Source: Liolophura sinensis (taxonomy: Eukaryota > Mollusca > Polyplacophora > Chitonida > Chitonidae). From it: a stretch of DNA of 64,000 nt. The position numbers and the translations under genes were made by a program. The DNA is taken from positions 49,339,385-49,403,384 of the forward strand of contig NC_088295.1 in assembly GCF_032854445.1 (NCBI RefSeq), given 5' to 3'. Below the pieces are notes generated by a model. It was given only the letters and a program-made list of their open reading frames with translations. It was not told the DNA's origin and made no database searches. Positions within the stretch are counted from its first letter, which is position 1. Every line of letters starts with the position of its first letter. Positions 1-63,772 of this stretch are shown in pieces.

Positions 1-221
1 CAATACACACTGTCCTATTATCACAAAATTCAATATATACTGTCCTATTATCACAAAATTCAATACAAAATTCAATACATACTGTCCTATCATCACAAAA
101 TTCAATATATATCATCCTATTATCACAAAATTCAATATATACTGTCCTATTATCACAAAATTCGATATATACCATCCTATTATCACAAAATTCAATATAT
201 ACTGTCCTATTATCACAAAAA
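1..221. repeat. 30-base minisatellite, copy A
   Basis: About seven units of a 30-base motif (TGTCCTATTATCACAAAATT plus CAATATATAC), with C/T and A/G variants and one partial unit (CAATACAAAATT, about 60-75). It begins at or before the window edge, inside PDXK intron 2 of this copy. Confidence 0.95.
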
Positions 222-968
222 TTGGCCTCACATGTGTCTCTGCCTCTATTTATTAAAACATAAGTCAATTCAAGAAATATGTTATTTTGATTGTCGTTTT
301 TCTGTGTTTCTTGGTGGAATAAGAATGAAAGATATGCCGGTACCAAAATGAATTGGTAATTATTTATATGATTCATGTTTGGGTAGCTGTGATGACAACA
401 GTCTCAGGATACAGGTATAAATATATACACAACTCAATGTTTACATTCTGCTGCTGGTGTTACTGTGCATACATCTGACACAGGCAGGTGCGTGGGGTGA
501 CAAAGGGTAGACAGAAAACAGATACACCTGTATATACACACCTACATGTAACAGGCCCTCCACACCAACATTCCCTGTACATAACAGTCAGGTACAGGAT
601 ATTCATAAGTACATACACAATTTGATTTAATGAATTCGATTGTTGCTTAATTCCATATTTAATAAACGATACTGTGTTGTTAGCTTAACACTGCTGATTT
701 GTAGTTAACACTTAATTAATTTGGTTATACAATTAACTATCATGCATGTCTTCAAATATATATATGTGACAACATATAGCCCTATTAACAGTGACTGAAA
801 TAATGTTGTATTTTAATGTAGGTAAAGGTTTCAAGGGATAATTACAAAACCAAACAGAAAACCACCTACATGCATAATCAGTCAGAAAACAAATTTTTTA
901 GTCAGTAAAATTACACTGTGTAGAACTATCATACAGAAGATCTGAACCATAATGCTCTGTGCATGCTG

Positions 969-1232
969 GGGTCCTCCATGGCTCAGTTGGTTAGCGCGCT
1001 AGCGCAGCGAAATGACCCAGAAGTGTCTCACCAATGTGAGTTCAAGTCCAGCTCATGCTGGCTTCCTCTCCGGCCGTAAGTGGGAAGGTCTGCCAGCAAC
1101 CTGCGGATGGTAGTGGGTTTCCCCCGGGCTCTGCCCAGTTTCCTCCCACCATAATGCTGGCCGCCGGCGTATAAGTGAAATATTCTTGAGTACGGCGTAA
1201 AACACCAATCAAGTAAATAAATAAATAAATTC
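969..1232 (+). mobile_element. Full-length tRNA-headed SINE (family 1), copy A
   Basis: 264 bases. The 5' head has a perfect pol III A box (TGGCTCAGTTGG) and a B box-like AGTTCAAGTCC. The body includes CCCACCATAATGCTGGCC and TAAGTGAAATATTCTTGAG. It ends in CACCAATCAA plus an (AAAT)n tail. It is flanked by a 10-base target duplication, GTGCATGCTG (959-968 and 1233-1242). Non-autonomous retroelement. Confidence 0.93.
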
Positions 1233-1410
1233 GTGCATGCTGATGTCATGTGAAACAGTCAATGTCTAACAGTCAAAATAAAGTTCATGCAGATAGAATA
1301 AATAAGGAGAATTAGCAATGCAAATGTGAAAACTTTTGAATAGTGATCACTACAATAAAACATACAGACCAATGCATGTCTCCAGTAAATCTGCATAAAT
1401 ATGTACTCAC

Positions 1411-4338
1411 CTGTATGATTTGAGAACTGGACAGAGTTAATCGGGCTAACATCAAATCCCAGAAGCTGGAAGAAATAAACATACATACTCACTGCAGTTT
1501 TGTTTTATTTTATTTATTTGATTGTTTTTTTTACACTGTTTTTAAGAATATTTTGTCTTATATGACAGTGGCCAGCATTAGTTTTGTTCCTGTTTTACTA
1601 ATTTACATATTTCATACCAAAACATAATGCCTCCTATTCTAATATTTCTTTGCATATTTTTACTGGTCTTTTTCACTGGGCTCTAAGGCATTAACATTTA
1701 AATAGTGGATTTATTAATATTCATCATTTATCCAAATACCCACTACTCGAGTCAACACTTGAGTGGACTAAGAGAAAACCTGGAATTACCTGTAATTATG
1801 TTAATTATGTTAACCGTACAATAACATTCCAAAAACCAAGGTTACAACTGCATCACACCGAGAACTTTAGCCAATTTATAGAAACTCCCTTTTAAGGCCA
1901 TCTCTTGCTCATCTATAGTCAGCTAACACGTTCTCCTTGCACCAGCTGATCTGCCACTGCTATATATCCTTGAATTTTAATGTCATACACGTACTTAACC
2001 ATTTTTCAGTCAGATGGCGACAGGGAGTTATTAGGTGTATGTACACATAGTGTGTCTTCTTGTGGTAGGATGAGTCCATGCCACCAAACTGCTGCCACCA
2101 CTGAAGTGTCATACTGAAGACACGCCTTCAGCATACAGGACACCCTGACACCTAATCACATATAAGACTAGTGCAGGGCAATGACCCAGGAGTCTCTCAC
2201 CAATGCGATCGCTGTGAGTTCAAGTCCAGCTCATGCTGTGGGAAGCTCTGTCAGGAGCCTGTGGATGGTTGCAGGTTTCCCCCAGGCTCTGCCCGGTTTC
2301 CTCCCACCATAATGCTGGCCACTGTCGTATAAGTGAAATATTCTTGAGTAGGGCGTAAAACACCAATCAAATAAATAAATAAATAAACACATAAGACACT
2401 GGGCCAAACAGTCCTGTTTCCTTCATCTAGCCTCGTGAGGTGAGGCCGCCAAGAGAGGCAGCAACAAATACCATTTTTATTAGGTCTTTGGTATGACCCC
2501 ATCTGGGTTTGATCAAAGGTCTTCCAGCTTTAAAACGGACACTCTAACCAATAGGCCACCGAAGCTGTTTACCAACCCATGCCGACAAATGCTCTCATCC
2601 AACATATGCTGGTTAAGCAGTAGATTTAAATTTAATAGCCAGAATCTTAGGTACTTGGCAAAATGGTGATTTGCTCACAGTAGTCTGATTACCTCCACCC
2701 AGCCACCATGCTAGCTACAGTACCGGTACTATGCTTTACCTCTGCTCAGTTCTGATATGTTGACGGACAGACCTGACTGATTGATACTCTGATGGTCTAT
2801 TCATCTTTCATCACCATGGCCATCAGCCTATCAGTACAACTCGTAAACTACACAACAGATTTATCATCATATGTATTTAAGTGAATATTCTTCAGAGATT
2901 CAACACCAATCAAATACATAAATGAATTACAGTTATTACTGCATCTAGCATTAGTGTTTGAATTAAATATGTGTCCCAGTACAGGGGCCACCGAACTGTG
3001 GGAGGGTGGGGGAAAAGTTCTAATTTGTCAGGCAGGCACCTAAACCCTTGCCTAAGTTGAGATCCCCCCCCCCTCATCACCCACATCCCCCACCCTACCC
3101 CAATCTATAATTTGAGACCCCCCCCCTCTATCACTCACATCCCCCATCCTAGACCAAGCTATTCCTCCAGCATTTTTCTGCTGTTAGGCCTAAACATTAT
3201 CCATGCTGTTATAAATACTGATAGTGATGATTTTAATAACATATATCATCTAACTGGAGCAATGGCAACATCCAGCTCTATACAATATGACTTGATCTCC
3301 AGCCAAGTAACAAGGACATCCTTTTGACCCACAAACAGGTCAGCTTCACCATTTTTATTTGCGAATAACACAAGCAGGAACTTTTTCTCAAACAGGATCT
3401 GCAACTTAATTTCGTCTCTCTTATCCACTTGACGGGTTGAAAAATACCACCCTTCCCTCCCCCCCCCCCCCAACAACCGGGCTTGACGCAAGCCATATCT
3501 TCCATTAGCCCTGGGACTATTGTTATACTTGTCCCATGTCAGCATAATTAAATAGACACTGTATCATAATATTACATCAATGTACGTCTTATAGGCTAAT
3601 CTTCCATACTGTTATATCATAATAATTAGGGGAAAACAGGCCTATTCCTCAGCTATAACTCAATTACACCTCGGTTACACTGCAGACATTCAGTTTTTTA
3701 CCTACTTTTTCCAGCATACACCTCCACTGAGGTGTACTTTAGGTATTAATTTATATAATTGGCAATGCCTCAGACATACATGTACCTGCAGCATACCTCA
3801 AATACACCTCAAACACACCTCAATCCAGATATGCTACATCTAAATCCAGATATGCTACACTTCAATGGTACACTTCTGATGTACCTCAATCATGCCTTAT
3901 CAGGGTAAGTGTATACATGTAGTAAGTCTTCAGGAAAAGCCAAGGGCTATCTTGTCGCGTAAGGAAGAGGTATCAATAAAAAGATTAAGCTCTTGAAAAT
4001 TATAAATGTACACAGTTAATCAGAGTAACCTACAGAATATTTAATACATTGTACGTCTGTACATTTAATACATTGTATTGTTAGCACAAAATGTCTATCA
4101 TTCATTAGGCTAAGTAATGCACTGCGTGCGCATGCACCTCGGCTTTAAGGATGAGAAGCTATTTGCATCATAGATTCAACAAGGCTTTTCACTACATACC
4201 CCAGTCTCTATAATAACTCTACTATTGCTTCTGGTGGATGCTTACCTGCAAAGGAAACGAGGCACTCTTGTTCCCCACATACCCGTAAACTACAGAACTC
4301 TGTATGGAGAGAACTCGGCACGTGTTGTCATCGGCCAT
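1411..4338 (-). CDS. PDXK: Second copy of pyridoxal kinase exons 1 and 2 (partial)
   Basis: Exon 1 is 4338-4246 (ATG to FPLQ, 31 codons, donor GTAAG). Exon 2 is 1465-1411 (55 nt, LLGFD to SNHT plus one base, donor GTGAG). They match 49166-49074 and 46310-46256; the only exon difference is a synonymous GAT/GAC codon in exon 2. No exon 3 follows, because the window begins inside intron 2. This is either the other haplotype of the same gene, misplaced in tandem, or a duplicated 5' end. Splice sites and frame are intact, so it is not a decayed pseudogene as far as it can be seen. Confidence 0.9.
1503..1590 (-). mobile_element. Old SINE (family 1) 3' fragment, copy A
   Basis: TATTTATTTGATTG tail, AAGAATATTTTG and TATATGACAGTGGCCAGCAT correspond to the 3' half of family 1 on the minus strand, with many changes. 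The counterpart is at about 46346-46433. Confidence 0.65.
2174..2391 (+). mobile_element. 5'-truncated SINE (family 1), copy A
   Basis: Lacks the A box; keeps the B box-like AGTTCAAGTCC, the CACCATAATGCTGGCC body and an (AAAT)n tail. Related sequences (CACATATAAGAC before, CACATAAGAC after) suggest a decayed target duplication. Confidence 0.88.
2500..2566 (-). mobile_element. tRNA-like SINE head fragment, copy A
   Basis: On the minus strand it reads GGTGGCCTATTGGTTAGAG (A box-like) and then GATCAAACCC (B box-like). It has no SINE body and does not fold as an intact tRNA gene. The counterpart is at about 47344-47410. Confidence 0.55.
2872..2933 (+). mobile_element. Old SINE (family 1) tail fragment, copy A
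   Basis: TTTAAGTGAATATTCTTCAG then CACCAATCAAATACATAAAT. The counterpart is at about 47717-47778. Confidence 0.65.
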
Positions 4339-4859
4339 CCTTATTTTATAACTGTCTACACTCACATACAGCTAAGTTAGAGGGCCAACTGCGACCCCCT
4401 CGTGACATACATGTACCGGCGGCATGTTGATTTTCTCCTAGCAGCGGTTCTGTGGCACAACTTCGTGGAGAGTACATTGGGATATTCTGAAAAATCTAAC
4501 TTGAAATAAGATCGAATTTTATACAAGGTCGCTTTTCGTGGTAAAGCGAAGTCATTGTAATATTGAACTGGATTTTGATGTTTTTTGTGGATGGTGTTGT
4601 GGAATGACCAGCACAAACTACGATATTGTTATCAGGCCACCATCTATTTTACATGCATGTCTCATACATACATAGTCTAAACAAGTATTTCCTTAAAATC
4701 TAAACGAATTAACTTGTAATTGTTAAACTGAAAGAAAATGAAATGATTTATAACGATCTATTTATACATGTATTTAACTGATCGTTGCATTTTGCATTTA
4801 CAAGATGGCTGTCAGTTTTGTTGTGTCGATGCATGAAACCAGAGTATAGGCTTTTTTTG

Positions 4860-4990
4860 CACCTTGGCCGACTAGGCGATACGCACACCTTAAATGGTCT
4901 TCAACTACCGTCAGAGTGTCAAAGGCCAGGTTTGAACCCACAGCTTGGGTGTCCTTGTGATAGAATTAAGTCAAACGCCTCCACGGCCCG
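4860..4990 (-). mobile_element. tRNA-like SINE fragment, copy A
   Basis: The minus strand contains GGGTTCAAACCTGG, a pol III B box, followed by a degenerate body. The counterpart is at about 49700-49830. Old and decayed. Confidence 0.5.
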
Positions 4991-7127
4991 TTCGGCTCCA
5001 TTGGCGTTTTGATGTGACAAGCTATAAAATGTTTATAGACAATATTTTTCGAGATAGTGCGGGCCAGAACAGGGTTTCAGAGTCTCATATCTAGACTGTT
5101 TCGCTTTGTCCCAAGTTTTATTTGTGGCTAAGAGTTGAAACTGTTGAAAAATAATAGTCTCTCTATATGTTTATACCGATTGCAAAAGATATATAAGTCG
5201 TACATTTGCATGTTACCCTCAAATACAAATTTACTGTAGATTATAGAAATAATCAATAATATAGAAATTTCAAAAGAAATACATGAAAATTTTGAAAAAA
5301 TATCATTAAAAACCTTAATTCTACATTAAGGTAACATAACATACCACACACACATATAACACCGGCAAATAAAAATCCTGTATTTGTCAAGCAACTTAAG
5401 TCATAAACTGCAAGTGCTTGAAAAGCCAAACTCAGAAGTAACAGAACTCAAACTATGTTGGGAACATTGTTCTGCAGTAGAGAACAAGTGTACAATTTTT
5501 AAACTTCCTAGACCAAAACATTTTATTTGTAGATGTGTTTGAATGTTTGACTTTGACAAATATAGCCTTCATGCAACTATATAAAAATATTCCCATATAA
5601 TATACACCTCTATAGTACGTAGCGTGGAACTGTATAAGCTGTATAGGCTGGCCTGTTATGCACCAAAAATTGTCCAAAATCAATCTGTACATTCATGGTT
5701 TTGAAGAGTTCAAAGAGGAATTCGCGTTTGATAATTACTGTTAATATATATTATGTCATTTAATTGTTACTGAAACTTATCCAATCAACTCTTTTTATGG
5801 TGGTACCAGAAAAAATACCGTCTATAGCTAAAAAGTCTGAAAAATTGCATTGAATCCTTGCTATAAGAAAGCGAGAATACTTCGAAACCTCGCACTTTGT
5901 TGTGCTGGTCTTCCTAAATGTTGCTTTGTCCTTAAATTTGTCCGATGGTTAGAATTCATTCCCTCTCTTTGGAATGTCTGCTACTTGGTTCATCATCCCA
6001 TATACTGTCTGCCGTATTATGTTATGTTCACACACGTATACTAGTCTTTTTATCCTATTCTTCTATGAAGACGTCGTTCCGTCGTCGCTGCCGCTAGCTA
6101 TAACCGCTGAGCTGATGACCTTGGCTGGCTCTAATCTATACAGCTCCATGGAGTTGTGTGGGCTATTTGAATGCTATGGCATGCAGCTACTCAATTCATC
6201 CCCGATATCATAAGCAATGATATCATAAATATTCTAAACTCAGTACATGCTTATCCTATATATATATGGTCATCTTTTTTGCCACGAAAAAGTACTTCTA
6301 TCAAGCATAAAACTCGACGCATCCCAAACACGACGTCGAATTTCGAACGTTGGCGTCGACTTTGTTTGTCGACTTTTTCCATTTAAAATTTGACGTGGAT
6401 TTGTGTGTGTGTGTGGGGGGGGGTATTCAGTTGCTTTCCTTGGCACAAAAAGGAGATCATCAGCTATGTACACACATTTCTAAACGCACAGCTTCGATGT
6501 CCTTAGCATACCAGAAAAGGTGTCTGAAAAAGTGTCTAAGATTAAGTTTTATGTTAAACTGGACTTCTTACATTACTCATGCAAGAAAATCTCACGCAAC
6601 AATATCACATTCTTAATATTATCAATGATTCAGTCAACAAAAAAATCCTTTATTTTTCATGGTATGTCCCTATACTTGTCTTATCGGAACGCATTTCGGG
6701 CAAATACTTATTGGTCACACCTCAGGCCACTTCAGAGTCTACAAAACGAGCCATTCCTCTCATACCTGTTTCAAACCGTTTAGACTATATACACCCACAA
6801 CTAGAAATCCTGCCCCCGTTAGAACTTAACAAATTCTCAATTCTCGTTTGTCCACCACCGATAGCTAATTCCAACCCGCTTTAATAGCCATCTTAAAGCA
6901 GATTTTATTCTGTTTCGTATTGTATGGCATCTGTGTTATTCACCCGTCATCAGTATTAATATAAATATATAACTTAGCCGGGATTGAGCGCGATCATTCT
7001 TCATTTAGGTTAACTTAATTTATTTTCGTCAATGTCTGCGTGTCAGTTAAATCATTTATTTTATTTTGCTACAGCAAGAATCACGCATGTTTAAAAAATT
7101 CCCAACACTCGTTCCGATCATAACTGA

Positions 7128-7300
7128 TGTCAGGTCCTTGACCAAGGCAGGAGGTCAAGTGTTCAAATCCAGCTCAAACTTTTTCGGCTACGGCTTCAAG
7201 TAAAGAGCTTGCCAGGCCTCACTCCACTTCACTCCAGGGGCAGCACTGGTTTCTTCACTCATAACCATGCACGCCGCCCTGTTCTCATTGATAGTGAGAT
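7128..7300 (+). mobile_element. Decayed SINE, copy A
   Basis: GTGTTCAAATCCAGCTC (B box-like) precedes a body with GGTTTCTTCACTCATAACCA and GCACGCCGCC, weakly like the family 1 body. The counterpart is at about 51862-52034. Confidence 0.5.
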
Positions 7301-7849
7301 CTGAATTCGTGGAAACAGGCGCTCGACGACGCTTGTGTATAGCCGTTTGGGAGACGTAGACTTCGGGAGAAGACCGCTTGTCTTCAGTTATCTAATACGG
7401 TCTACATGCATATATATCTGTAGGCCACACGAAAGCGAAGTTCGTCAGTAACTTGTCACGAGTCGGTGGTTTACCCACGAAAGGCACGTCGGTTTTCCCC
7501 ACCTATAAAACTACATGTCCCCCCATGGTATTAGTGAAACTCTGCAGTCGCATAACACAAAAATCAAAAAAATACATAAATAGGTCATAAACTTGGCCGC
7601 CGTCATAAAAGGGAAAAACTCTTTTGCATGGCGTTAGTCAACAACCAGTCAATCAAATAATCAGTCAATCAATCAATCACAGTTTATAATCCATCCCCGT
7701 TTTTGCCCCAAAAATATAAAATGACATCAGCATAACCAGCATAACATAACTATTATCTAGATTGTGAGTAGATTAATCGCATGCAAAGCCTAAAGGTCAG
7801 ATGTACCAGAAGAGGTTCGTACAAACTGATTCCAACACAACCAATGTTT

Positions 7850-7907
7850 CAAAGTTTTTGAACTTTTGAAGTCTGTTCCAAAGTTTTTGAACTTTTGAAG
7901 TCTGTTC
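7850..7907. repeat. 29-base perfect tandem duplication
   Basis: CAAAGTTTTTGAACTTTTGA followed by AGTCTGTTC occurs twice head to tail (7850-7878, 7879-7907). The same pair is in copy B at 52583-52640, so it predates the A/B split. Confidence 0.95.
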
Positions 7908-8224
7908 CAAAATTTTCATTGGGTTCATGTTAGACCTTTGTGGTGATCATTATTGGGACGCTCGTATATATGTATGTATGTATGTATGAAAAACCTTAGC
8001 CATGGATTATATAATGCTTTCCCCTGTAGTACCTTGTTATTACACGCTTTACTTTATAAATAATTTACACCCAAATAATTGAATGATGTCAATTTCACTT
8101 TTCGCTTTATAGCCGTCAACTTTGCAGGAGGCACGCACAGCCCGAAATGGTAAACTTTTTTGTAACTTATTCTAAGCTGATCAACTGTGCATTGTATGGG
8201 CTGTTTGATATCAATAATAAAAAG

Positions 8225-8487
8225 TTTTTTGATTTGATTTGATTGGTGTTTTACGCCCTACTCAAGAATGTTTCACTTATACGACGGCGGCCAGCATTAT
8301 GGTGGGTGGAAACCGGGCAGAGACCGGGGGGAACCCACGACCTTCCGCAGGTTGCTGCAAGACCTTCCCACCTACGGCCGGATAGGGAGCCAGCATGAGC
8401 TGGACTTGAACTCACAGCGACCGCATTGGTGAGACTGGGTCATTACGCTGTGCTAGCGCGCTAACCAACTGAGCCACGGAGGCCCCC
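8225..8487 (-). mobile_element. Full-length SINE (family 1) present only in copy A
   Basis: 263 bases in minus orientation, tail (TTTGATTTGATTTGATTGG) first and tRNA-like head (CCAACTGAGCCACGGAGGCC) last. It is flanked by a perfect 13-base target duplication, CAATAATAAAAAG (8212-8224 and 8488-8500). Copy B has one uninterrupted CAATAATAAAAAG at 52942-52954. The insertion therefore happened after A and B separated. Confidence 0.97.
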
Positions 8488-9629
8488 CAATAATAAAAAG
8501 AATATTGCACAGTGAAGATTCACGTCTTGTGGGTTATCACTTCCAACTGTCACAAGAAAAAATATCCATGGTATTGACTATGGTATTCGACATTTACTAC
8601 ATGCATGCAAGCTTCGCCACGATATGGCCTTAATATTGCCGAAGTGCGGTCAATCCATGATCAGTCATTATATATACAAGCTTAATTGTTTCCGACGTCA
8701 TACGTAAGAAATCTGTAAAGAAAGACAAGTCGCCAGAACTGAAGTTTCAGAAGATGATTTTCCTCTAAGTAGTTACTTTAATTTTACTTGGTGAATACGA
8801 TGTATATTTGCATGAGAATAAAAGGAATCTCTGAACAACCTACATATCTTTAACAGTCAGGGTTTCCATCAATCGTTGCGCCTTAATTCTCCTGCAGCTG
8901 TTGTAGTTTCTTCAATATAACCGCGTATGCAATTATTTCGCCCATTTACGAAGTTAATGCAAAGTTTGTAAATTTCAATGACCTTTTACTAGTTATAACA
9001 AAACACATATTTCTCTTACCCTTCCTGAAAGATATATATATAGATATGTATACATGGTGGCGGTGAAGTTTGGAAAAAGAACACAAACCAGCCAAAGCTC
9101 TTGCGAAATCAACTTATAAATAATGTCTTGATAGCAGATCTAAAGATTCAAGACAACGGCTTGAATCAGGGGCTACACTTGGACTATATATGGTATCCGA
9201 TGTATAGAACAGGTGCTACAGTACCCAGTGTATGTAAATCCGTCGTAGTTTGAGGGGTGAGGGTTGTTCATACACATCAAACACGCATGTCAATCAATCA
9301 CTGAAAGAATCAGTCAATCAATCAACCACAGTTTATAATCCATCCTCAAAACACAGCTCTCCGTTCCTGTCCAAAAAGCTGTAATGAGATCGGCAAATCA
9401 GTCTGTTCAGCCTAGGACTAATATAATAGATGTTATAACAATCCCAGGTTCAAGTCAGGTGTCTGCCATTCTCAATACTATTTAACTTCCACTTACGTGA
9501 CGATCAGGTTTATGGACGAAGGCTCATGGAAACCAGCATTCACCAGACACCTGATAAACCCGTAAAACAGGACTGGAACCATGCAGACGAAGGTGAATGT
9601 GAACAAACAACCTGATTGGTTGAGAGCCT

Positions 9630-10230
9630 GTCGTCTGGCGGAGAGTGATGACTGGATCAACAAGTCTGCTGGAGAGCGACCTCTTTGGCGGCTGGAGCAG
9701 CTACTATGCGGGGCCCGGTTGTTTAACAATGTATTAGCTAATACCCGTATTAAGTCATATTACATATTTACGATTTGAACAAAACCCAACTACCAATACC
9801 GTTGTACAGAGCCCAGCTGGAGCAGCAGTACACTTAGTTAAAACTTTAATAATATCGAATACATTTTTAAAGAAGTACATGTAATTGTTTTGGGGCCAAG
9901 CATAAAACTGAAGACTGTTCGAAGTTATAGCTGGTATTAAATCTTAAGTCACTTTTGAACAAGAGGGCGCCGTCGTTAAAAACTGGACCAACCAGGCTTC
10001 TGGAGAGCGATGTCGGTGACGACTGAATCAACCAGTCTGCTGGAGAACGACGCCACCGTCGAGTGGACCAACCAGTGTGTTGGACAGCGACGTCACTGAC
10101 CACGGGGCATTATCGACTTAAATCCCATTAGTTTTGCTGAAAGATAACACTGGTATTAAGATTTAAGATATAACACACCTTTGAACAACCGAACCCTTGG
10201 TAGCGACGTCAATGACGACTGTACCAGTGA
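9630..10230. repeat. Dispersed imperfect repeats with GCGACGTC cores, copy A
   Basis: Variants of CAACAAGTCTGCTGGAGAGC, GCGATGTCGGTGACGACTGA, AGCGACGTCACTGACC and AGCGACGTCAATGACGACTG recur irregularly (about 9650, 9970-10105 and 10200). Copy B has them at about 54100-54680. Origin unknown; no frame persists. Confidence 0.55.
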
Positions 10231-10439
10231 GAACTTAATAAGGTCCTTAACCACTTTCCAATTGTTTAATATAACATAGAAAACGTTTTGCATAAGTGGG
10301 ATCTAGCAAAATTACCAAAACGGAAGTGGCGTTAGTTAAATGGAAATCACGTTTCTGTAAAAGGGTATGGCCCTTTCTGGTGGGCACTACCTGGCCTCCT
10401 CTCCTTGAGTGCACACTGTTAAACATGAATCAAATGGAC

Positions 10440-10660
10440 AAACTATCAGGCCTTTGACCAATTAGACTAGAACACCGACCGTGTGTTCGATTTCCGCGAG
10501 ATACTGCTGCTTGGTTGCGACCTTAAGCCAGGTTGTTTTCTAGGTATCTGGTGGTTTACTCCAGGCACTCCGGTTTCCTACACCCATAAACCTTATCGCC
10601 ATCACAAAGTGAAGAATTCTTGAGCACGACGTTAAACAAAGATCAAATAATTAAATGAAG
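10440..10660 (+). mobile_element. Decayed SINE of a related family, copy A
   Basis: B box-like GTGTTCGATTTCC, then CTCCGGTTTCCTACACCCAT, then GTGAAGAATTCTTGAGCACG and ACGTTAAACA ending in an AAAT-like tail. The 3' part is clearly related to family 1. The counterpart is at about 54892-55110. Confidence 0.75.
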
Positions 10661-13600
10661 AAATAAAGTTCCACTTGGTTGTCACATATCAGCCACTATA
10701 GTCTCACTCCCAAAAAACAAACCATAATTGCATGAATATACAAAAAAAGTCCAAGAAAAATTTGATATCAACGGATTCAAATGCATTTTTATTTTTTCCT
10801 TACATTTCTATTTATTTTCATATATCCAGTGAGTCCATAACACGTCTGACAGGTCTGTTTCACGAGGCCATGCCCAGTGGGTATATGTAATACATGACTG
10901 TGACATAACATTATACTATAATATGATAAACTCTCACATATCAGTCATTTTCCTAACATTTAATATTATGTATAATATATAAATATCTTATAACACAAAA
11001 CAGGATCGACAATATTCGTCTGCACATTTACACCTTTGGACACATATGACTACATATGATAAATTGACTTCTTTCCTATGTGAATGATTTGTCTAAATGC
11101 CCATGCACTGATAGAAAATGCAAAACATGTAAATTAATTTTATATACAGGCAAATACACATGCGCATTTTAGCTGAACGCTTAAGGTACCCCTTTTTGAA
11201 AAAAATACAGATAATGTAATACAATTGTTCTTGACTCCATAAACAATCAGTATTCTAGAGACACATTTTACAAGAATTAGACTAATCCGTAACTAACATA
11301 TGTATATATAGCATTTGCGCTCAAACTTTACAGAAGGCAACTAATGCAGCAAGCATGCAGCTGCATAGAGGATCAATCTAACAAATACGTCACATCCATT
11401 GGAAAATGGTATAAAAGGTACAAAATTGCGAAATCGTTGGAAATAGCCAATGGGGACATATTTACAGATGTTTGTATGCATGTTTTATATATAACCTTTA
11501 AACCCCAAGAGACCACCTGTGCTTTTCTCGACAAAGACGAAGTGTGAACGTTAAAGGAATGGGCAGTCTTAACTCATGGCAATGGAAATGATGAGTACAC
11601 AGTTATATAGCTATGTTTATTTGTCGACAATCAATATTTAATCTGCATCTGTACTGAGCAAATCACTTATACCATTATCTAAAGAGTGTCATTAACGGAA
11701 GCTTAAAGCCGCATGCACCATATTTTATACACACCATTTTCTGCTAACCAGAAAATACTGATAGGTTCCGTATATTTAACACAATTCTCTTTTGGTGTGT
11801 TGTACTGAAGACCTATAGAACACACGGAATCATCAGAAATGGGCCTAGCTTTGAACGTCCCATGGTCTACCAGTGGCGTACGAAAGTCGTACTTAACCCT
11901 TCGATTATACAGGCCATATACCTTTATGGCGCAATTATGTTCTCTTATAGAGGGCGCATACACTGAACTATCATGCACTTATTTCATCGTTGTCTCTGGT
12001 GAGATTTTAGGCCAAAGGCAATTTACTTTAGTTGTAAATGCATGGGAAATAAATAAACAGGTCAATCGTCAACGAAAAAGTCGCTTTGCGTACATGTACC
12101 TGGTATTTGCAGCCCCATGCACAGCAGTCCCCAAAAAGTATTCTATATCCCAAACTCCACCCTTCAGGGGGTTCAAGACAGTATTTTACAGCGACATTTA
12201 CAGGGAATGTAGAATTTGCAAGACTGAATCTTCACTAAACATGTATTATAACTGGCACAATCTAAAAGTCCCGAAGAAATCAGACTTCCTACCATATGAG
12301 GTTGTAAATCTATTCTCGGTCAGGCTAAGCTCATGTGGAGCCTACTTGCTATTGTCTGACGAGTGTTAAATTACATCTGGATGATGCACCATGGAGGTTA
12401 TACAGAGCAGGAACATGCGCAAAGCCAGTTTAATTTTGACTTTCGTCAGATTTGAAAAAATGGAACAATGAGTCCTTGTTTTCTTATAACAACGTAATCT
12501 AAAATTTTGAGCATGTAGAGTGTTATGCTATTACGAGTCATTAGGATTGTATGTTTGGATCATAATATATACTTAGAATTACGGTAAAGTTTGAAACTCA
12601 GATAACCACGGGATCTAAATAACAAGGGTGCCCTATATGAAATGGGAACTCGGATACTGCACACTACAGCCAATTGTAGCATAATATATAATGAACACTT
12701 TGCTGCAATTGCCACTTGCGTCTTCAGGCGGCCAGAGCTATTTGTTTGATGAAGTTGATGACTATGACTTCAGTTTAAATTGCGTTTTTAAGTAAAACTT
12801 TTTGTTAGAATTCAGCAAGCAACCGTAACTTTGAAGAAGATAGTATAGTACATGTGAACATTTTTACAATATATGACTGAAGCTGGAATTCTGATAGTTC
12901 AATTTTGGATAGACTTCATCTGTCTTCATGTATTAATGGTTGTGTGTAGTTCGGTTTTAGTTCTTACAAGCTAAAATAGAATCAAAGGTTAAGCTGTAAA
13001 CTGGGCGTATCCTTCAGCCAGCTTTGTGACACCAAGCAAAGAGCACAACACAAACTATCGAGTAATCAGCAACAAAGGAAATACATAACTTGGTCGTATT
13101 CATGTTTATTCATGCACCTAACAGAAATAGAATTTTTTATTCAGCTATACATTTATAGTCAACGAAACTTTACATGAATTGCACGAACGCCAATACGCAT
13201 CAGGAGATCAGAATTTATCTTCATGTGTACTTTAGAAAGTCTTTTAGAAAGATTTCGTTTCCAGCCCACATTTTGCGATGTCGCGGTATGCCATTTTAAA
13301 GTATCGCTTTATTTCCACAGCTTATTCACGGGACCTTTACCATTTAAGCGTATGTATTTTCTCAGTATTCTTTTTTCAATATTTTTCAATATTATTCTGT
13401 TATAATTACAGAAACTGGCTTTTATTCCCACTTATTCCTCATGGCAATATAAGTTTATATCCTGTCTGACTCAGCCTTGTGTGATTACTCCCATGTTCAC
13501 GGTTTGGAAATGGTATAAGTACACTTTATTGTGTTAGTATTCTTACGATTGCATTGACGTGAGGTGCCCTGTTGTTCAAATTAGTAAAGCTCTATTCCAC

Positions 13601-16600
13601 ACATGCGAATTTCATATCACATAACGCTGTTCTCCGTTAACTAAATTACAGCCTTCATTTCTGTAACCATGGAATCAGTTATGTACCCCCAGCCCGCCGT
13701 ATCCTGATGACTCATCATTTAGACCACAAGTTACCGAGTTTCAAACCTGAATTTTTGATGTTGTGGACATGTCATGGATTTATGTTATACTTACATTGTG
13801 ATCTATTCAAGTGTCAAGGGGTAGTTTGGTTCTATTCTCTAATTCTTTGCATCAAAAAATATCCTGTCTGTCGATCAACAGGCGAATGTCTGGAACCCGT
13901 ATAATTTCCCAGGTGCAGTATCTGGCCTTTCTCGAAAGATAAAGTCTCTAGCTTACAGATGCCTTTACAATGTACTGACACTGATGTTTGAAGAAATGAT
14001 CGCCAAAAACTTTTGGTGCAGCTATAGATGTGAACCGATGAGTCCCGTCTGGCCAAGCGGATTTAATCCGGGAACCTCTTCGGAACCAGCGAAATGAGTT
14101 CTATCGAGATTCATGAAACGCAATAAATGTACAGTGTATTATAGTCACGAGAATCTTTTATAGTGTATGTAAAGCTTAATAAGAAAGTGTTAATGCATAA
14201 ACGTGCAATTATGAGTTCAAGTATATTTATTTACACACTATCGGAATTGTCTACACCACGATGAGACGAAGTAAGAACATATGGAATCAGAGAGAAAAGA
14301 AGGTCCGTACCCTTTGGTATGTATACCCCATCCCCTCAATGCTGTTGTCCTACTACTGTCAAATGGAACATGCAGAACCTTTATATCAATCCTAATCAAG
14401 CCATATTTTCAACTACAACGACGACAATAAACCATATGGCTACAATGTATCATCTCAAAAAATTTCGCAGAAAACAAGCAGAGATACATGCGTAAAGGCT
14501 ATATTTGAAGGTATGCCTTCTGGAAAGGCGATTTCAATTTGAAACATAAATTAGGCATGAAATTAACATTATCTCATTTGAAATTTTTTTAGAGTTTTAC
14601 CGAGAAAGGTTTTCATAATTTCAAAAGTTCATTCTGGATGTATTAAAATTCTTTAAGCTTACATGGCTCTCTGCAACGTTAGGCCACTCATAGAGTACAA
14701 AATGGGAGAACCAGAAATACCATGGCAACAGCGACGTTTTCTTGTGTTTATTGTCCTACTTGAAGTATAAATTATCCTTCATATAAGATGAAAGCCATCT
14801 TTTGACCTTACAGGGTTTGTAGTGAAGACAAGTCAATGTTACTGCCCAGCAGATTATCGCGCACTAAGATCCCTAGGCCTTCCACAATTCTACATGTGTA
14901 CTACTTTACACTTTAGATGTACAATAATCAATGACATATCTGATTAGAAAACCTAACAAGTTTCTAAACTTTGTAAACAATGATGCCAAAATTATGCAAC
15001 TAAATTTATGTACAGTATCAGCCAAAATGGACAAATTATTTACTTCCACATACTTTTTGTGCTTATGTGTTTTGTTTTTGTTTTATTTATTTTTTAAAGA
15101 AAAAAAATCCACAAAGCAAATGAGGAAATGACGTGAAGCATTAGATACAATGCGATAGAAACCACAATGAAACACAGAAGACCAGACAGTAACCAAACAG
15201 TTGAAGGCCTGTATTGAAGATCATGACAATACAAAAACAATTCCATACCTCATAACCTATTCACAATGAGTGACAGTCCCTTTTACACAGAGAAGGTAAA
15301 GGGGAAAAAAAAAGGAATGTTATCGAACAAAAGTCCAAACACTGATTCTGTGCACTGTTTCACTGTCATACACTCCCCACCAGCCCCCTAACCCCACCCT
15401 CTGTGTCCCCGACTAAGCCTATCACAGTCAATCTGTACTTACATGTATGCAACACAAAAGTGCAGGGTGCTTTCTTAGGTTCAGCCACAATTTTAGAAGA
15501 AATTCATAAAAAGTTATTCTCTCTATTTTCCAGACAACATACAAAAATGTGCTTCTAATGAGTGGCTAATCTTTACACAATGGATGGTAATTTTTTTTTT
15601 TTATGGACTGTCCAGATGGGCAATTAATTAGCAATCTGATCTAACCAAAATGAAGATATCCATACCATACAATGAAACATTTCTCACAAACTGCCAAAGC
15701 AATTATCATTTTATAAGCCTTACACGAAAGTGCAGTCTGGCATCTACTTTCTGTAATGTTATTATTTATGTATATCTGGGAGATGTAACTTACACACCAT
15801 GAACCATCAGAATGCAAACCATACACACTATGTAATATGGGGAATGAGTTTATGTACAATACATTAGAATATTAAAAACAACAACAACATTAGATATGAC
15901 TGTCATCATCATTGCAGCTGATTTCAGAAATAACGTCTCTTTTTCAGTGATGATTTTGATAACTTCAGTCACTAATTTCTTCATGTACACCAAGAAACAT
16001 ACTTGTGCTTCCATTTCAACCCCATGAATACTTAAAAAAAATACCACATGTACATCTTGCAATGGTTCTACTGTACTGCTGTGACAGAAAATACATCAGC
16101 TATATTAACACATCATGGCATTGAATCCCAATACTGCCACTGTTTGCAACACGTCCGGGTTGGCTTTGTAGCTTTTCAACTGATTCAAGTTTTACAATAT
16201 TAAAATAAAAAAATTAAAAAAAAGAAATAATGAACATATGTATGTCTGTTCAATGTGTAGGTAATTTCAACCTTACTTAATAGGAAAAAAATCACACTTG
16301 TTTTAAAAAAATATACCACATACGGAGCAGGTGAGGATAAAACAAGTGACCTTAAATGAAACAAATATCGACACAAAGGGTGAAGCACAGATAATCTTTT
16401 TTTCTTCCTTGAAATTAAATAAGGTTTTAAAAGTCATAAACCTACTTTTTAATAAACCAAAGATCTTCAGCAAATTGCCATCAAAAGACCCAAAAATGTT
16501 AAATAAAACAAGGAAAAAGAAAACATGAAGAAATGAAGGTAAGACTAAGATAAACAATTACACAGATATTCATGGACACCCTTAATTATTCCCCTCTTTC

Positions 16601-17455
16601 TTTAATAAAATTTTAATAAAATTTACTTTATTACACATAAATGTATGCAGGAAGTTCTTAACCCTACTTTTATTCTCATTCTAACACTAAAGGTCAACAC
16701 CCACAGAGACAATTTAAACTGCTACATCTTCGCCATTCATTATTCTATCTTTAGTATTGCAAAGCCATGCAGCTATCCCATTAAACTGACAATATACTTC
16801 CTCTATAACGAATTTACAACCATGACGTGTTCAAAAAAAAGACTTCAACCCAGAGATTTGAGAGTACCTGTTTTTCTTTATATAACTGGTATATGTATAA
16901 TAATTAACAAATCTGCTCTGTAATGGTGATGAGGTGAATAAATAAACACCTAGGTCTAAACAGAGATGATGTAAGGCACTAGAAGAGAGAGAGGGTCCTG
17001 AGGAGTTGTCTAGAGGATGGGGAACACAGAGGAAAACCCTGCTCCGTCACTTACCGCCGCATCACGGAGCCTTTGGTAAAAGGTAAAAAGTAAACACATT
17101 AGTATTAGACAGTTTCTTACGGGTAAAAAAAAAAAAAATATATATATATATGCGTGTGATCATGCCAAGGGAGTAATTTTGTATGCTTAGTGCTTTATAA
17201 TGGGGGCCTCTTCCCAATGACTTGGGTACAAGCCTGATGTTTCGTTCTTCTCCTTTAATTGTTACATAAGTACAACTTGTACATTACAATCTTTTCCACA
17301 TCGTCCTTGTGAGGGCAGGAACAAACAGTGAACTATTCTTAGATCACCTGGCTTCTTTGCCTTGCCTTCAAAAAAACCCGAACGCTAGTGATCCAAATTG
17401 CATATGCAAGATGGCACACTAGTGCCATCTGATACACCGAGAAACAGACAGGCAA

Positions 17456-17512
17456 TTTGATTGGTGGTTTAGTCCAAACTCAAGAATCTTCATCTTTATG
17501 TTAAATCGAGGC
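17456..17512 (-). mobile_element. SINE (family 1) tail fragment, copy A
   Basis: TTTGATTGGTGGTTTAGTCC followed by ACTCAAGAATCTTCA matches the 3' end of family 1 read on the minus strand. The counterpart is at about 61867-61922. Confidence 0.55.
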
Positions 17513-19357: not shown

Positions 19358-19557
19358 NNNNNNNNNNNNNNNNNNNNNNNNNNNNNNNNNNNNNNNNNNN
19401 NNNNNNNNNNNNNNNNNNNNNNNNNNNNNNNNNNNNNNNNNNNNNNNNNNNNNNNNNNNNNNNNNNNNNNNNNNNNNNNNNNNNNNNNNNNNNNNNNNNN
19501 NNNNNNNNNNNNNNNNNNNNNNNNNNNNNNNNNNNNNNNNNNNNNNNNNNNNNNNNN
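19358..19557. other. Assembly gap, 200 N
   Basis: Exactly 200 unknown bases, a round number typical of a scaffolding placeholder rather than a measured distance. The sequence to its right (19558 on) does not continue the sequence found after the equivalent point in copy B (63773 on). Confidence 0.99.
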
Positions 19558-19589
19558 ATTCACAAGATGTGATGTTTGGTAGCATTTAA

Positions 19590-30046: not shown

Positions 30047-30355
30047 TATTGTTGCTTAACACCATAGTGGTACTCTAGAACTTTTCAATCATATGATGGC
30101 GATCAATTTTATCGGGGGAGGAAACCAGTGTACCCAGCATAAACCAATGACTTTTGGATAATTACTGATGAACTTTCCCACACATGCACATGATAGTGGT
30201 GGAAGATTAGTGGTCTTCAGCAAACGCCAGACTTCACAAATGGTCATACCATCATAACTGCTTATTGTCACCGATGCCCCACAAGCAGTGAGAGCAGGGA
30301 GTTTTTTCTTGCAGGGAGAATTTCTTGTCCACTGTCGGATTTGAACTTGCACATT
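30047..30355 (-). mobile_element. SINE of a second family (family 2)
   Basis: Starts with GTTGCTTAACACCATA, then GGGGGAGGAAACCAGTG, CAGCATAAACCAATGACTTT, and ends near GTCGGATTTGAACTTGCAC, whose minus strand gives a B box-like GTTCAAATCCG. It differs from family 1 in body and tail. Confidence 0.7.
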
Positions 30356-45200: not shown

Positions 45201-48200
45201 GTAATTATTTATATGATTCATGTTTGGGTAGCTGTGATGACAACAGTCTCAGGATACAGGTATAAATATATACACAACTAAATGTTTACATTCTGCTGCT
45301 GGTGTTACTGTGCATACATCTGACACAGGCAGGTGCGTGGGGTGACAAAGGGTAGACAGAAAACAGATACACCTGTATATACACACCTACATGTAACAGG
45401 CCCTCCACACCAACATTCCCTGTACATAACAGTCAGGTACAGGATATTCATAAGTACATACACAATTTGATTTAATGAATTCGATTGTTGCTTAATTCCA
45501 TATTTAATAAACGATACTGTGTTGTTAGCTTAACACTGCTGATTTGTAGTTAACACTTAATTAATTTGGTTATACAATTAACTATCATGCATGTCTTCAA
45601 ATATATATATGTGACAACATATAGCCCTATTAACAGTGATTGAAATAATGTTGTATTTTAATGTAGGTAAAGGTTTCAAGGGATAATTACAAAACCAAAC
45701 AGAAAACCACCTACATGCATAATCAGTCAGAAAACAAATTTTTTAGTCAGTAAAATTACACTGTGTAGAACTATCATACAGAAGATCTGAACCATAATGC
45801 TCTGTGCATGCTGGGGTCCTCCATGGCTCAGTCGGTTAGTGCGCTAGCGCAGCGAAATGACCCAGAAGTGTCTCACCAATGTGAGTTCAAGTCCAGCTCA
45901 TGCTGGCTTCCTCTCCGGCCGTAAGTGGGAAGGTCTGCCAGCAACCTGCGGATGGTAGTGGGTTTCCCCCGGGCTCTGCCCAGTTTCCTCCCACCATAAT
46001 GCTGGCCGCCGGCGTATAAGTGAAATATTCTTGAGTACGGCGTAAAACACCAATCAAGTAAATAAATAAATAAATTCGTGCATGCTGATGTCATGTGAAA
46101 CAGTCAATGTCTAACAGTCAAAATAAAGTTCATGCAGATAGAATAAATAAGGAGAATTAGCAATGCAAATGTGAAAACTTTTGAATAGTGATCACTACAA
46201 TAAAACATACAGACCAATGCATGTCTCCAGTAAATCTGCATAAATATGTACTCACCTGTATGATTTGAGAACTGGACAGAGTTAATCGGGCTAACGTCAA
46301 ATCCCAGAAGCTGGAAGAAATAAACATACATACTCACTGCAGTTTTGTTTTATTTTATTTATTTGATTGTTTTTTTACACTGTTTTAAGAATATTTTGTC
46401 TTATATGACAGTGGCCAGCATTAGTTTTGTTCCTGTTTTACTAATTTACATATTTCATACCAAAACATAATGCCTCCTATTCTAATATTTCTTTGCATAT
46501 TTTTACTGGTCTTTTTCACTGGGCTCTAAGGCATTAACATTTAAATAGTGGATTTATTAATATTCATCATTTATCCAAATACCCACTACTCGAGTCAACA
46601 CTTAAGTGGACTAAGAGAAAACCTGGAATTACCTGTAATTATGTTAATTATGTTAACCGTACAATAACATTCCAAAAACCAAGGTTACAACTGCATCACA
46701 CCGAGAACTTTAGCCAATTTATAGAAACTCCCTTTTAAGGCCATCTCTTGCTCATCTATAGTCAGCTAACACGTTCTCCTTGCACCAGCTGATCTGCCAC
46801 TGCTATATATCCTTGAATTTTAATGTCATACACGTACTTAAACCATTTTTCAGTCAGATGGCGACAGGGAGTTATTAGGTGTATGTACACATAGTGTGTC
46901 TTCTTGTGGTAGGATGAGTCCATGCCACCAAACTGCTGCCACCACTGAAGTGTCATACTGAAGACACGCCTTCAGCATACAGGACACCCTGACACCTAAT
47001 CACATATAAGACTAGTGCAGGGCAATGACCCAGGAGTCTCTCACCAATGCGATCGCTGTGAGTTCAAGTCCAGCTCATGCTGTGGGAAGCTCTGTCAGGA
47101 GCCTGTGGATGGTTGCAGGTTTCCCCCAGGCTCTGCCCGGTTTCCTCCCACCATAATGCTGGCCACTGTCCGTATAAGTGAAATATTCTTGAGTAGGCGT
47201 AAAACACCAATCAAATAAATAAATAAATAAACACATAAGACACTGGGCCAAACAGTCCTGTTTCCTTCATCTAGCCTCGTGAGGTGAGGCCGCCAAGAGA
47301 GGCAGCAACAAATACCATTTTTATTAGGTCTTTGGTATGACCCCATCTGGGTTTGATCAAAGGTCTTCCAGCTTTAAAACGGACACTCTAACCAATAGGC
47401 CACCGAAGCTGTTTACCAACCCATGCCGACAAATGCTCTCATCCAACATATGCTGGTTAAGCAGTAGATTTAAATTTAATAGCCAGAATCTTAGGTACTT
47501 GGCAAAATGGTGATTTGCTCACAATAGTCTGATTACCTCCACCCAGCCACCATGCTAGCTTACAGTACCGGTACTATGCTTTACCTCTGCTCAGTTCTGA
47601 TATGTTGACGGACAGACCTGACTGATTGATACTCTGATGGTCTATTCGTCTTTCATCACCATGGCCATCAGCCTATCAGTACAACTCGTAAACTACACAA
47701 CAGATTTATCATCATATGTATTTAAGTGAATATTCTTCAGAGATTCAACACCAATCAAATACATAAATGAATTACAGTTATTACTGCATCCAGCATTAGT
47801 GTTTGAATTAAATATGTGTCCCAGTACAGGGGCCACCAAATTTCTAATTTGTCAGGCAGGCACCTAAACCCTTGCCTAAGTTGAGATCCCCCCCCCCCCC
47901 TTCATCACCCACATCCCCCATCCTAGCCCAATCTATAATTTGAGACCCCCCCCCTATCACTCACATCCCCCATCCTAGACCAAGCTATTCCTCTAGCATT
48001 TTTCTGCTGTTAGGCCTAAACATTATCCATGCTGTTATAAATACTGATAGTGATGATTTTAATAACATATATCATCTAACTGGAGCAATGGCAACATCCA
48101 GCCCTATACAATATGACTTGATCTCCAGCCAAGTAACAAGGACATCCTTTTGACCCACAAACAGGTCAGCTTCACCATTTTTATTTGCGAATAACACAAG

Positions 48201-49166
48201 CAGGAACTTTTTCTCAAACAGGATCTGCAACTTAATTTCGTCTCTCTTATCCACTTGACGGGTTGAAAAATACTACCCTCCCCCCCCCCCCCCACTCCCA
48301 ACAACCGGGCTTGACATAAGCCATATCTTCCATTAGCCCTGGGACTATTGTTATACTTGTCCCACGTCAGCATAATTAAATAGACACTGTATCATAATAT
48401 TACATCAATGTACGTCTTATAGGCTAATCTTCCATACTGTTATATCATAATAATTAGGGGAAAACAGGCCTATTCCTCAGCTATAACTCAATTACACCTC
48501 GGTTACACTGCAGAAATTCAGTTTTTTACCTACTTTTTCCAGCATACACCTCCACTGAGGTGTACTTTAGGTATTAATTTATATAATTGGCAATGCCTCA
48601 GACATACATGTACCTGCAGCATACCTCAAATACACCTCAAACACACCTCAATCCAGATATGCTACATCTAAATCCAGATATGCTACACTTCAATGGTACA
48701 CTTCTGATGTACCTCAATCATGCCTTATCAGGGTAAGTGTATACATGTAGTAAGTCTTCAGGAAAAGCCAAGGGCCATCTTGTCGCGTAAGGAAGAGGTA
48801 TAAATGAAAAGATTAAGCTCTTGAAAATTATAAATGTACACAGTTAATCAGAGTAACCTACAGAATATTTAATACATTGTACGTCTGTACATTTAATACA
48901 TTGTATTGTTAGCACAAAATGTCTATCATTCATTAGGCTAAGTAATGCACTGCGTGCGCATGCACCTCGGCTTTGAGGATGAGAAGCTATTCGCATCATA
49001 GATTCAACAAGGCTTTTCACTACATACCCCAGTCTCTATAATAACTCTACTATTGCTTCTGGTGGATGCTTACCTGCAAAGGAAACGAGGCACTCTTGTT
49101 CCCCACATACCCGTAAACTACAGAACTCTGTATGGAGAGAACTCGGCACGTGTTGTCATCGGCCAT
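33232..49166 (-). CDS. PDXK: Pyridoxal kinase, complete 10-exon gene (one exon frameshifted)
   Basis: ATP-dependent kinase of the ribokinase fold that phosphorylates pyridoxal, pyridoxine and pyridoxamine in the cytosol (B6 salvage). Exons on the minus strand: 49166-49074, 46310-46256, 41861-41756, 40203-40120, 39848-39814, 37401-37316, 36149-36001, 35448-35330, 34348-34282, 33359-33232 (stop TGA). All have AG acceptors and GT donors and the phases join. The protein is about 306 aa; human PDXK is 312. Visible landmarks in order: [19 protein letters not shown] at the N-terminus, [38 protein letters not shown], the catalytic anion hole [10 protein letters not shown], and the C-terminal [11 protein letters not shown]. 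The start is the ATG nine codons before SIQSS, matching the family. Exon 3 is 106 nt where the neighbouring phases need 105, so it carries one extra base (probably in AAAATTTT, 41771-41778). This is a sequencing slip or an allele rather than a decayed gene. Introns hold several minisatellites. Confidence 0.95.
33390..33525 (-). mobile_element. Decayed SINE family 2 fragment
   Basis: TTGACGACACACTCAAGAAA, then TTATATGATGACATTCAG and CTGGCATAAACGACTGACCT, resembling family 2. It lies just upstream of the PDXK last exon, in intron 9. Confidence 0.6.
34655..35210. repeat. About 37-base degenerate minisatellite in PDXK intron 8
   Basis: About 15 imperfect units built on GATCTGGAGAAACCATTGCA followed by CCTCCTCAATTTGTAAA. 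Units diverge by several bases each, so the array is older than the 39-base one. It lies between exon 9 (34348) and exon 8 (35330). Confidence 0.92.
37011..37132. repeat. 17-base minisatellite, seven units, in PDXK intron 6
   Basis: The unit is AGAGCTGGGATCATGCA. GGGATCATG (or a variant) recurs every 17 bases at 37017, 37034, 37051, 37068, 37085, 37102 and 37119. It lies about 180 bases downstream of exon 6 in the intron. Confidence 0.95.
38055..39614. repeat. 39-base minisatellite, about 40 units, in PDXK intron 5
   Basis: The unit is CTATGTTTTATTACTCTACC followed by AAACCTGAGGTGAAATACA, 39 bases (13 codons). The variable centre is CCTGAGGTG, CCTTACGTG or CCTTAGGTG. Open frames run through it on both strands (for example 39151-39621 on the minus strand). 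However, units with one base more or less (near 38273, 38740 and 38885) break the frame, and it sits between PDXK exons 5 and 6, so it is not coding. Confidence 0.97.
40770..40850 (+). mobile_element. tRNA-like SINE head fragment in PDXK intron 3
   Basis: GGTTCAAATCCCTACAGGGT is a near-perfect pol III B box followed by a stem-like complement. The upstream half does not fold as a full tRNA and no typical SINE body follows. Confidence 0.45.
43050..43275 (-). mobile_element. Decayed SINE family 2 in PDXK intron 2
   Basis: TAGTGCTCTACTCCAGAGTG, then GAGTAAACCACTGGCCTTTG, CAACAAACTTTCATG-like text and TGGTGGAAGACTACCGACAA correspond in order to 30047-30355. Confidence 0.6.
44540..44820 (-). mobile_element. 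Near full-length SINE family 2 beside the copy B boundary
   Basis: Tail side GTTGCTTAATACCATACTCA, body GGGTGGAGGAAACTGATGTG and GGCATAAACCACCAGCCTTT, B box (minus strand GTAGGTTCAAAACCGG) and an A box-like head (minus strand GTGGCCGAGTGGTTAGAGGC). The head resembles a serine or leucine tRNA. It abuts the 30-base minisatellite at 44826. Confidence 0.8.
44826..45065. repeat. 30-base minisatellite, copy B
   Basis: Eight units of the same 30-base motif (240 bases), in intron 2 of PDXK. Because 30 is a multiple of 3, it stays open in several frames on both strands and produces meaningless long ORFs. It starts directly after a full-length SINE of family 2. Confidence 0.95.
45814..46077 (+). mobile_element. 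Full-length tRNA-headed SINE (family 1), copy B
   Basis: Same insertion as 969-1232, with the same target duplication (45804-45813 and 46078-46087). The A box region reads CTCAGTCGG here, a single difference. Confidence 0.93.
47018..47232 (+). mobile_element. 5'-truncated SINE (family 1), copy B
   Basis: Counterpart of 2174-2391, with small indels in the body (CTGTCCGTATAAG and GAGTAGGCG). Confidence 0.88.
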
Positions 49167-61100: not shown

Positions 61101-63772
61101 TCAACACCCACAGAGACAATTTAAACTGCTACATCTTCGCCATTCATTATTCTATCTTTAGTATTGCAAAGCCATGCAGCTATCCCATTAAACTGACAAT
61201 ATACTTCCTCTATAACGAATTACAACCATGACGTGTTCAAAAAAAAAAGACTTCAACCCAGAGATTTGAGAGTACCTGTTTTTCTTTATATAACTGGTAT
61301 ATGTATAATAATTAACAAATCTGCTCTGTAATGGTGATGAGGTGAATAAATAAACACCTAGGTCTAAACAGAGATGATGTAAGGCACTAGAAGAGAGAGA
61401 GGGTCCTGAGAGTTGTCTAGAGGATGGGGAACACAGAGAAAACCCTGCTCCGTCACTTACCGCCGCATCACGGAGCCTTTGGTAAAAGGTAAAAAGTAAA
61501 CACATTAGTATTAGACAGTTTCTTACGGGTTAAAAAAAAAAAATATATATATATATATATATGCGCGTGATCATGCCAAGGGAGGTAATTCTGTATGCTT
61601 AGTGCTTTATAATGGGGGCCTCTTCCCAATGACTTGGGTACAAGCCTGATGTTTCGTTCTTCTCCTTTAATTGTTACATAAGTACAACTTGTACATTACA
61701 ATCTTTTCCACATCGTCCTTGTGAGGGCAGGAACAAACAGTGAACTATTCTTAGATCACCTGGCTTCTTTGCCTTGCCTTCAAAAAAACCAGAACGCTAG
61801 TGATCCAAATTGCATGTGCAAGATGGCACACTAGTGCCATCTGATACACCGAGAACAGACAAGCAATTTGATTGGTGGTTTAGTCCAAACTCAAGAATAC
61901 TTCATCTTTATGTTAAATCGAGGCACCTTACAAAACCTTGTCATGGTCAATGTTCCAACATCAGTATCTTAGGCTCCGAACTGAGTGATATTGAATTTGG
62001 CAAGATGTGTCCCACTATGAAGTTTGAAGTCACTTGGACATATATAACAATTATTCCCTTGGCAGGATCCTCGTGGTAAAAGCAGTATTTTGTAGTCAAA
62101 ATTATGAATACAAATGGTAATACATGTAAAATATTTCTTGGACCTTCAGTGTAGTAATACATGAAAGAGTTATGCACAACCCACAAACATGGTGGCCATG
62201 GTGATCAACTTTACCAAAAAATTACACTATTTGCAAAGAAAATGAGAATATTTCATTCTGGAATTTGTACTTGGACTACTGGGTTAAGAAGGATAGAAGG
62301 ATCTTCAGTGAAAGCATATTGTTTGGGCTTTAACATAGGCCAGTGTAAAAGTGACGAATCAAGCTGGCCAAGGAATTGGTATAAATACAGGGAGGATTTT
62401 GGCATGTTACTGAAGGAATTTTTTGGTTTTTTGTCTTCAGTGAGTTTTGGCCAGCTCCTGTCCTTCACCTTCATGTGAAGTTAAAATCCATCAGACTTGA
62501 ACATCAACTCAAAAAGATCAAATGTGCAACCACACCACAGTAAAAAAAGTCCAATAAACCATAAACAACACACATGCATACATGTCCTAAAATAGTGTGA
62601 ATCAAGATTAATGAAGGATTTTACACACAAAGCATGTCTAATCCACAAAGGAAGAAGAAAAAAAAGTTGTTGCTTAACATCATTGCCTTTCTGTATACAA
62701 TATCTCAATCAGACAATATAAAGTGATCCATGTACATGTAACTATAGCTTCTAGAATAACCATAACCATGGAGGTGTTACAATGCTTTCTTTGTGATAGC
62801 AAATTACTTAACACTGAGTGTTATGGTGCCAAATGCCTGGCATCTATGACATGGGGGATTCTGTTATCATGGGCCTCATAGCTTCCTTGTGTGGTCATCA
62901 ATTTAGCGACAATCTCTAATATGTGAACAAATACCCGGAGAGCGAAGCTTTCAATCTTCATCAAACTGATCAAAGTTTAAACAACTTAGCCAGTTTTTCC
63001 AATGCACTCCAAATCTTTTGTCTTTCATCTTCGTTCATTTCACGTTAACAAAGCCCACTGAACACTATTTCCATAGCTTACCTACATGTACATGTAGAAC
63101 AATGGACTATCACAAAATTTTGATTTACCACTTTTTTCAAAAGACAATTTGAAAACGCAGGCAATGTGTCAACACAGCGAAACATGCAATATAATTTCAT
63201 AATGTCCTGGCAATGGTTACTAACTAAGTCATATGTTTGTTCATGTTTGAGGTTTTGACAAACTTGGAAAAGATTTTCTTGTAGTATGTCGCACACACTA
63301 CGTATCCATTTGACATTGTCAGCAACAATGGTTCTGATCAGTAAACAGTGGTTCTGACAATCTACTTTTAGGCTTAATTTATATCATATTTAGAGAGTCA
63401 TTGAATGCCAATGTTTGCAAAAGTGTATCAGATGAACAGACCAAAAGTTCCCTTCATCCCACCTAACCCATGTATTATCAAAGAGCTTGACAGCATGTGT
63501 ACATGTGCCACAGATTTCTAAAAAAAAAAAAAAAAAATAATTACATGTACGGTGAAGAAGCTAAAGCACACCAGTTAACATTTTGTACAGCAGTTGAAAA
63601 TAAAAATGAGACAAAGTCAAACTAAATCAGGCATACCCAAAAGAAATCACTGCAATTTGACTATAAAGCACAGACAGATGTATGGATGGATGATCAGCAC
63701 CAGTTCATCAAGTTATGGTGTGGGTCATGTTGGCAGTCACATTTAACAAGCATACATGTGTATTTCAAAGAG
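49167..63772. other. PDXK upstream DNA, copy B; no gene supported
   Basis: Counterpart of 4339-19357. The longest open frame (56252-56782, plus, 176 codons) is present in both copies. All four differences inside it change the amino acid and it matches no family I know, so it is not called. The last 4 kb contains minus-strand open stretches (63078-63360, 62253-62474, 61947-62186) whose frames are shifted by small indels between the copies. It could be the 3' end of another gene, but this is unproven. Confidence 0.6.
52583..52640. repeat. 29-base perfect tandem duplication, copy B
   Basis: Counterpart of 7850-7907; both units are retained. Confidence 0.95.

Follow-up and report, generated by a model that had tools for sequence, protein, structure and literature searches.

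The large direct repeat in the stretch of Liolophura sinensis DNA that we analysed (the window; 64,000 nucleotides, G000:C1:49339385-49403384, NC_088295.1) appears to be an assembly artefact, with a probability that we put at about 94%. Its two copies would be the two alleles of one locus of about 45 kb that carries PDXK (pyridoxal kinase, the vitamin B6 kinase), left in the assembly as a retained heterozygous (haplotypic) overlap. The assembly that holds the window comprises 609 Mb in 632 contigs. All coordinates are window positions, and negative numbers lie to the left of the window.

Self-comparison of the window recovered the direct repeat described in the initial annotation, in three long matched pieces (1-5256/44858-50095, 5419-8224/50153-52954 and 8488-19357/52942-63772) at 97.7-98.0% BLAST identity. 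We then added flanking sequence to the window (40 kb on its left side, 10 kb on its right) and compared all the sequence before the gap with all the sequence after it. The end of the left contig, from -27007 to 19357 (46,365 bases; copy A, in whole G000:C1:49312377-49358741), was co-linear with the start of the right contig at 19660-63772 (44,113 bases; copy B), and the size of the repeat is 44-46 kb. The match between 1-19357 and 44830-63772 that had been proposed initially therefore stands, while its left limits and its size of 19 kb do not, as the repeat reaches back to -27007 in one copy and to 19660 in the other. The alignment of the left flank against 19558-44830, which had been suggested as a check, was positive from 19660 onwards: 24,704 of the 25,198 bases of 19660-44857 align with bases of the left contig. 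A repeat of 19 kb whose copies are separated by unique sequence was rejected, given that 19660-44857 is the earlier part of copy B. Because the window edge cuts the repeat, the initial annotation arrived at a size of 19 kb and at one set of later exons for PDXK. Over the full overlap, 28,426 24-mers were unique within each copy and common to both (chance expectation about 7e-6), and a single co-linear chain takes in 28,412 of them. Since the repeat continues co-linearly past the left edge of the window, the two contigs overlap, the terminal part of the left one matching the initial part of the right one across the gap; this is a dovetail, the chained alignment between contig ends that characterises heterozygous overlaps and false heterotype duplications.

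Features of the window with their positions, strand and supporting analyses.
Feature	Position	Strand	Evidence
Copy A, part within the window; terminal stretch of the left contig	1..19357	+	self-comparison, flank comparison, genome search
PDXK, copy A, first two matched exon stretches (other seven left of the window, to -13504)	1409..4329	-	TIGR00687, probe match
tRNA-type SINE-like insertion, 263 bp	8225..8487	-	copy comparison
200 N, read as a scaffold gap joining two contigs	19358..19557	.	self-comparison, flank comparison
Initial 102 bases of the right contig, with no counterpart in copy A	19558..19659	+	alignment, genome search, array comparison
Copy B, 44.1 kb at the start of the right contig after these bases, co-linear with the left-contig end	19660..63772	+	flank comparison, 24-mer chain
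PDXK, copy B, nine matched exon stretches	33241..49157	-	TIGR00687, probe match, domain hits
39-bp minisatellite, copy B, 40 units	38055..39614	+	array search
Right contig past the overlap; four matches of 31-47 bases elsewhere, without a second long copy	63773..64000	+	genome search

N occurs in the window as one run of exactly 200 bases, directly preceded by the final base of copy A. The duplicated pair thus lies on one scaffold and is separated by an assembly gap, as in a false heterotype duplication, and the junction, which is contiguous sequence in a true tandem segmental duplication, is here occupied by the 200 N. A YaHS-scaffolded assembly with 54 gaps, each of 200 N, is described in passages of PMC12134992; by analogy, our guess is that the present assembly may have been made with YaHS too. 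On the other side of the gap, the alignment of copy B starts 102 bases into the right contig, beside a degenerate tandem array of about 41-bp units. When 19558-19900 was used as a genome query, these 102 bases matched nowhere else. Compared with the adjoining array they scored 53, against a mean of 29.7 for shuffled sequences, of which 1 in 2000 reached that score, in a weak test that relied on one consensus unit and long alignment gaps. Given the lack of another genome match and the likeness to the array, the simpler reading, which would explain the unmatched bases, is that the alleles differ in the length of the array; a duplication breakpoint, considered as another origin for them, is not needed.

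We examined the copy number of four overlap segments (1-1500, 13900-15400, 19558-19900 and 62800-64000) by genome search, and all four had two full or near-full places, both at the present locus. The second match of 19558-19900 lacked the 102 bases that open the right contig, and the last 228 bases of 62800-64000 lie outside the overlap and are absent from copy A. Further matches of 1-1500 were confined to query positions 962-1250, which correspond to a dispersed SINE-like element, and those of 62800-64000 were of 31-47 bases each. No second long copy of the flanks was found among the scored candidates (left flank, 1,993 bases; right flank, 228 + 3,000 bases), and elsewhere the flank queries matched one dispersed element of about 220 bases and otherwise short repeats that are dispersed. 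These copy counts are not absolute, because the best 40 candidates were scored out of 3,956 (1-1500), 1,119 (left flank) and 5,723 (right 3,000 bases) and very common words were skipped.

We also sampled the 3-kb starts of 11 unplaced contigs for allelic comparison, and one of them (C20) was used as a genome query; no second dovetail-like example was found in this sample. The C20 start was a dispersed repeat according to the genome search, and the starts of C14 and C30 held 2,500 N in 3,000 bases. In the other eight starts (C50 to C600), distinct 12-mers were few (0.26-0.50 of positions) and the opening sequence was similar in several of them, so that these contigs begin in satellite-like arrays.

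PDXK lies on the minus strand in both copies. TIGR00687 had four matches in the genome (13 out of 13 candidates scored), two per copy, and a pyridoxal kinase probe matched nine exon stretches in each copy, running from 4329 down to -13504 in copy A and from 49157 down to 33241 in copy B. The second set of later exons, to the left of the window, contradicts the initial report of a single set. Probe residues from about 111 to 126 had no match in either PDXK copy, and two probe matches with an E value of 0.42 (13109-13023 in copy A and 57522-57436 in copy B) were set aside as chance. An approximate peptide joined from the translated stretches hit both PF08543 (E 7e-10) and PF00294 (E 8e-9). Over the nine hand-picked exon stretches, the two PDXK copies differ at 9 out of 777 columns.

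The full alignment of the two copies comprised 43,549 columns with 692 substitutions (1.59%; 403 transitions and 289 transversions). We also counted 188 indels: 94 of one base, 60 of 2-9 bases, 23 of 10-49 bases and 11 of 50 bases or more. Single-base runs of four or more hold 40 of the 94 one-base indels, in line with the homopolymer changes noticed initially. The number of substitutions per 2,000 columns varied from 9 to 62 across 21 full bins, with a variance/mean ratio of 8.4 that none of 100,000 Poisson simulations of equal mean reached. Alignments within tandem arrays are arbitrary, so the bin count was repeated without 18 array stretches: 622 out of 39,315 columns differed (1.58%), and the 19 full bins spanned 10 to 59 substitutions with a variance/mean ratio of 6.8, again reached by 0 of 100,000 Poisson simulations. 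Misaligned tandem arrays were thus rejected as the origin of the patchy divergence, which persists with the arrays removed. Haplotypes are expected to diverge patchily, and the distribution fits a mosaic of coalescence times between alleles; the patchiness could also stem from uneven constraint or, if the duplicates are real, from gene conversion between them.

Taken together, the dovetail at one gap, the two copies of the overlap, the flanks with no second long copy among the scored candidates and the unevenness of the divergence fit a heterozygous overlap retained through scaffolding. The initial proposal of two haplotypes placed in tandem gains support from the position of the boundaries, at contig ends beside the scaffold gap, and from the allele-like unevenness of the divergence. 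The geometry alone is not decisive, since a tandem duplication interrupted by a contig break would give the same dovetail. We weighed a real recent tandem segmental duplication, with a unit of at least about 45 kb that includes PDXK and with its junction inside the 200-N gap, and consider it very improbable. The copies do lie head to tail on one scaffold, the probe matched the identical nine PDXK exon stretches in both of them, and the 102 bases that open the right contig, having no counterpart in copy A, count against a retained overlap. Against it, the assembly holds no junction sequence and both copies reach contig ends; a break at exactly that point would probably need a coincidence, since copies with 1.6% substitutions and many indels should be separable by accurate long reads. 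The strongly uneven divergence also argues against a real duplication, though gene conversion between duplicates could cause such unevenness. A tandem duplication on just one of the two haplotypes is more improbable still, as it would need polymorphism in addition to the same coincidence, and the true allele-specific tandem duplication described in parts of PMC9516828 sat within one contig, unlike the present case. Even when all the real-duplication readings are pooled, including the one whose junction would lie inside the gap, it is very unlikely that a block of about 45 kb with PDXK underwent a genuine and recent, possibly polymorphic, tandem duplication.

The retained heterozygous overlap would have arisen as follows. 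In a heterozygous diploid individual, the assembler would have placed two diverged alleles of one locus of about 45 kb in two contigs, one allele closing the first contig and the other opening the second, and neither allele would have been removed from the assembly. Scaffolding would then have set both contigs in order and orientation with a gap of 200 N between them, presumably introduced by the scaffolder, and each copy would carry half the read depth. Retained overlaps occur in highly heterozygous species, of which most insects and marine animals are named in passages of PMC7203741. The heterozygous overlap of purge_dups, as outlined there (Guan et al. 2020), likewise involves two contigs of the primary assembly and a long matching chain read as diverged alleles, whereas the present overlap was met after scaffolding and is seen in the assembly sequence. 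The false heterotype duplications treated in parts of Ko et al. 2022 (PMC9516828) likewise consist of an adjacent pair on one scaffold with an assembly gap and an apparent gene gain; those cases come from assemblies of birds and the platypus and draw on read depth and k-mers, in contrast to the present case, which was recognised in the assembly sequence alone.

The two copies also differ in an insertion and in the lengths of tandem arrays. The 263-bp element of copy A is flanked by a 13-bp target-site duplication and is absent from copy B, where the empty site is uninterrupted (52942-52954). Family members were also observed at 968-1229 and 2168-2387, and the family is dispersed in the genome, with 3,956 rough first-look candidates, the best 40 of which were scored. 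The minus strand of the element contains what we take to be tRNA-promoter-like boxes, and the 3' part of the family presumably resembles the Nin-type SINEs of molluscs. Based on the boxes and on the spread of the family over the genome, we read the element as a putative SINE inserted on one haplotype. The Nin-SINE of Lottia is described in passages of PMC11121367 as a SINE2/tRNA element that comprises a box A, a box B and a Nin domain. A search of the window for tRNA genes returned none.

The 39-bp minisatellite of copy B sits between two PDXK exon stretches and has open frames on both strands (six-frame stretches of at least 75 aa downstream of the gap, of which the 30 longest were viewed). 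Its counterpart in copy A extends from about -8594 to -5318 in BLAST coordinates, with about 84 units, and is about twice as long. We also observed a degenerate 21-bp array of about 42 units at 22895-23765, where the copies differ by indels of 41 and 61 bases and by 0 substitutions in 877 aligned columns (22821-23800).

If the duplication were true, the animal would have two vitamin B6 kinase genes. Under the retained heterozygous overlap that we favour, an annotation of this scaffold would count two PDXK genes and record a tandem duplication, although neither the gene pair nor the duplication is likely to be real, which makes the finding mainly a matter of quality control. If the copies are alleles, the locus would provide one local sample of the heterozygosity of this animal, with 1.59% substitutions, a one-sided SINE-like insertion and a large difference in minisatellite length.
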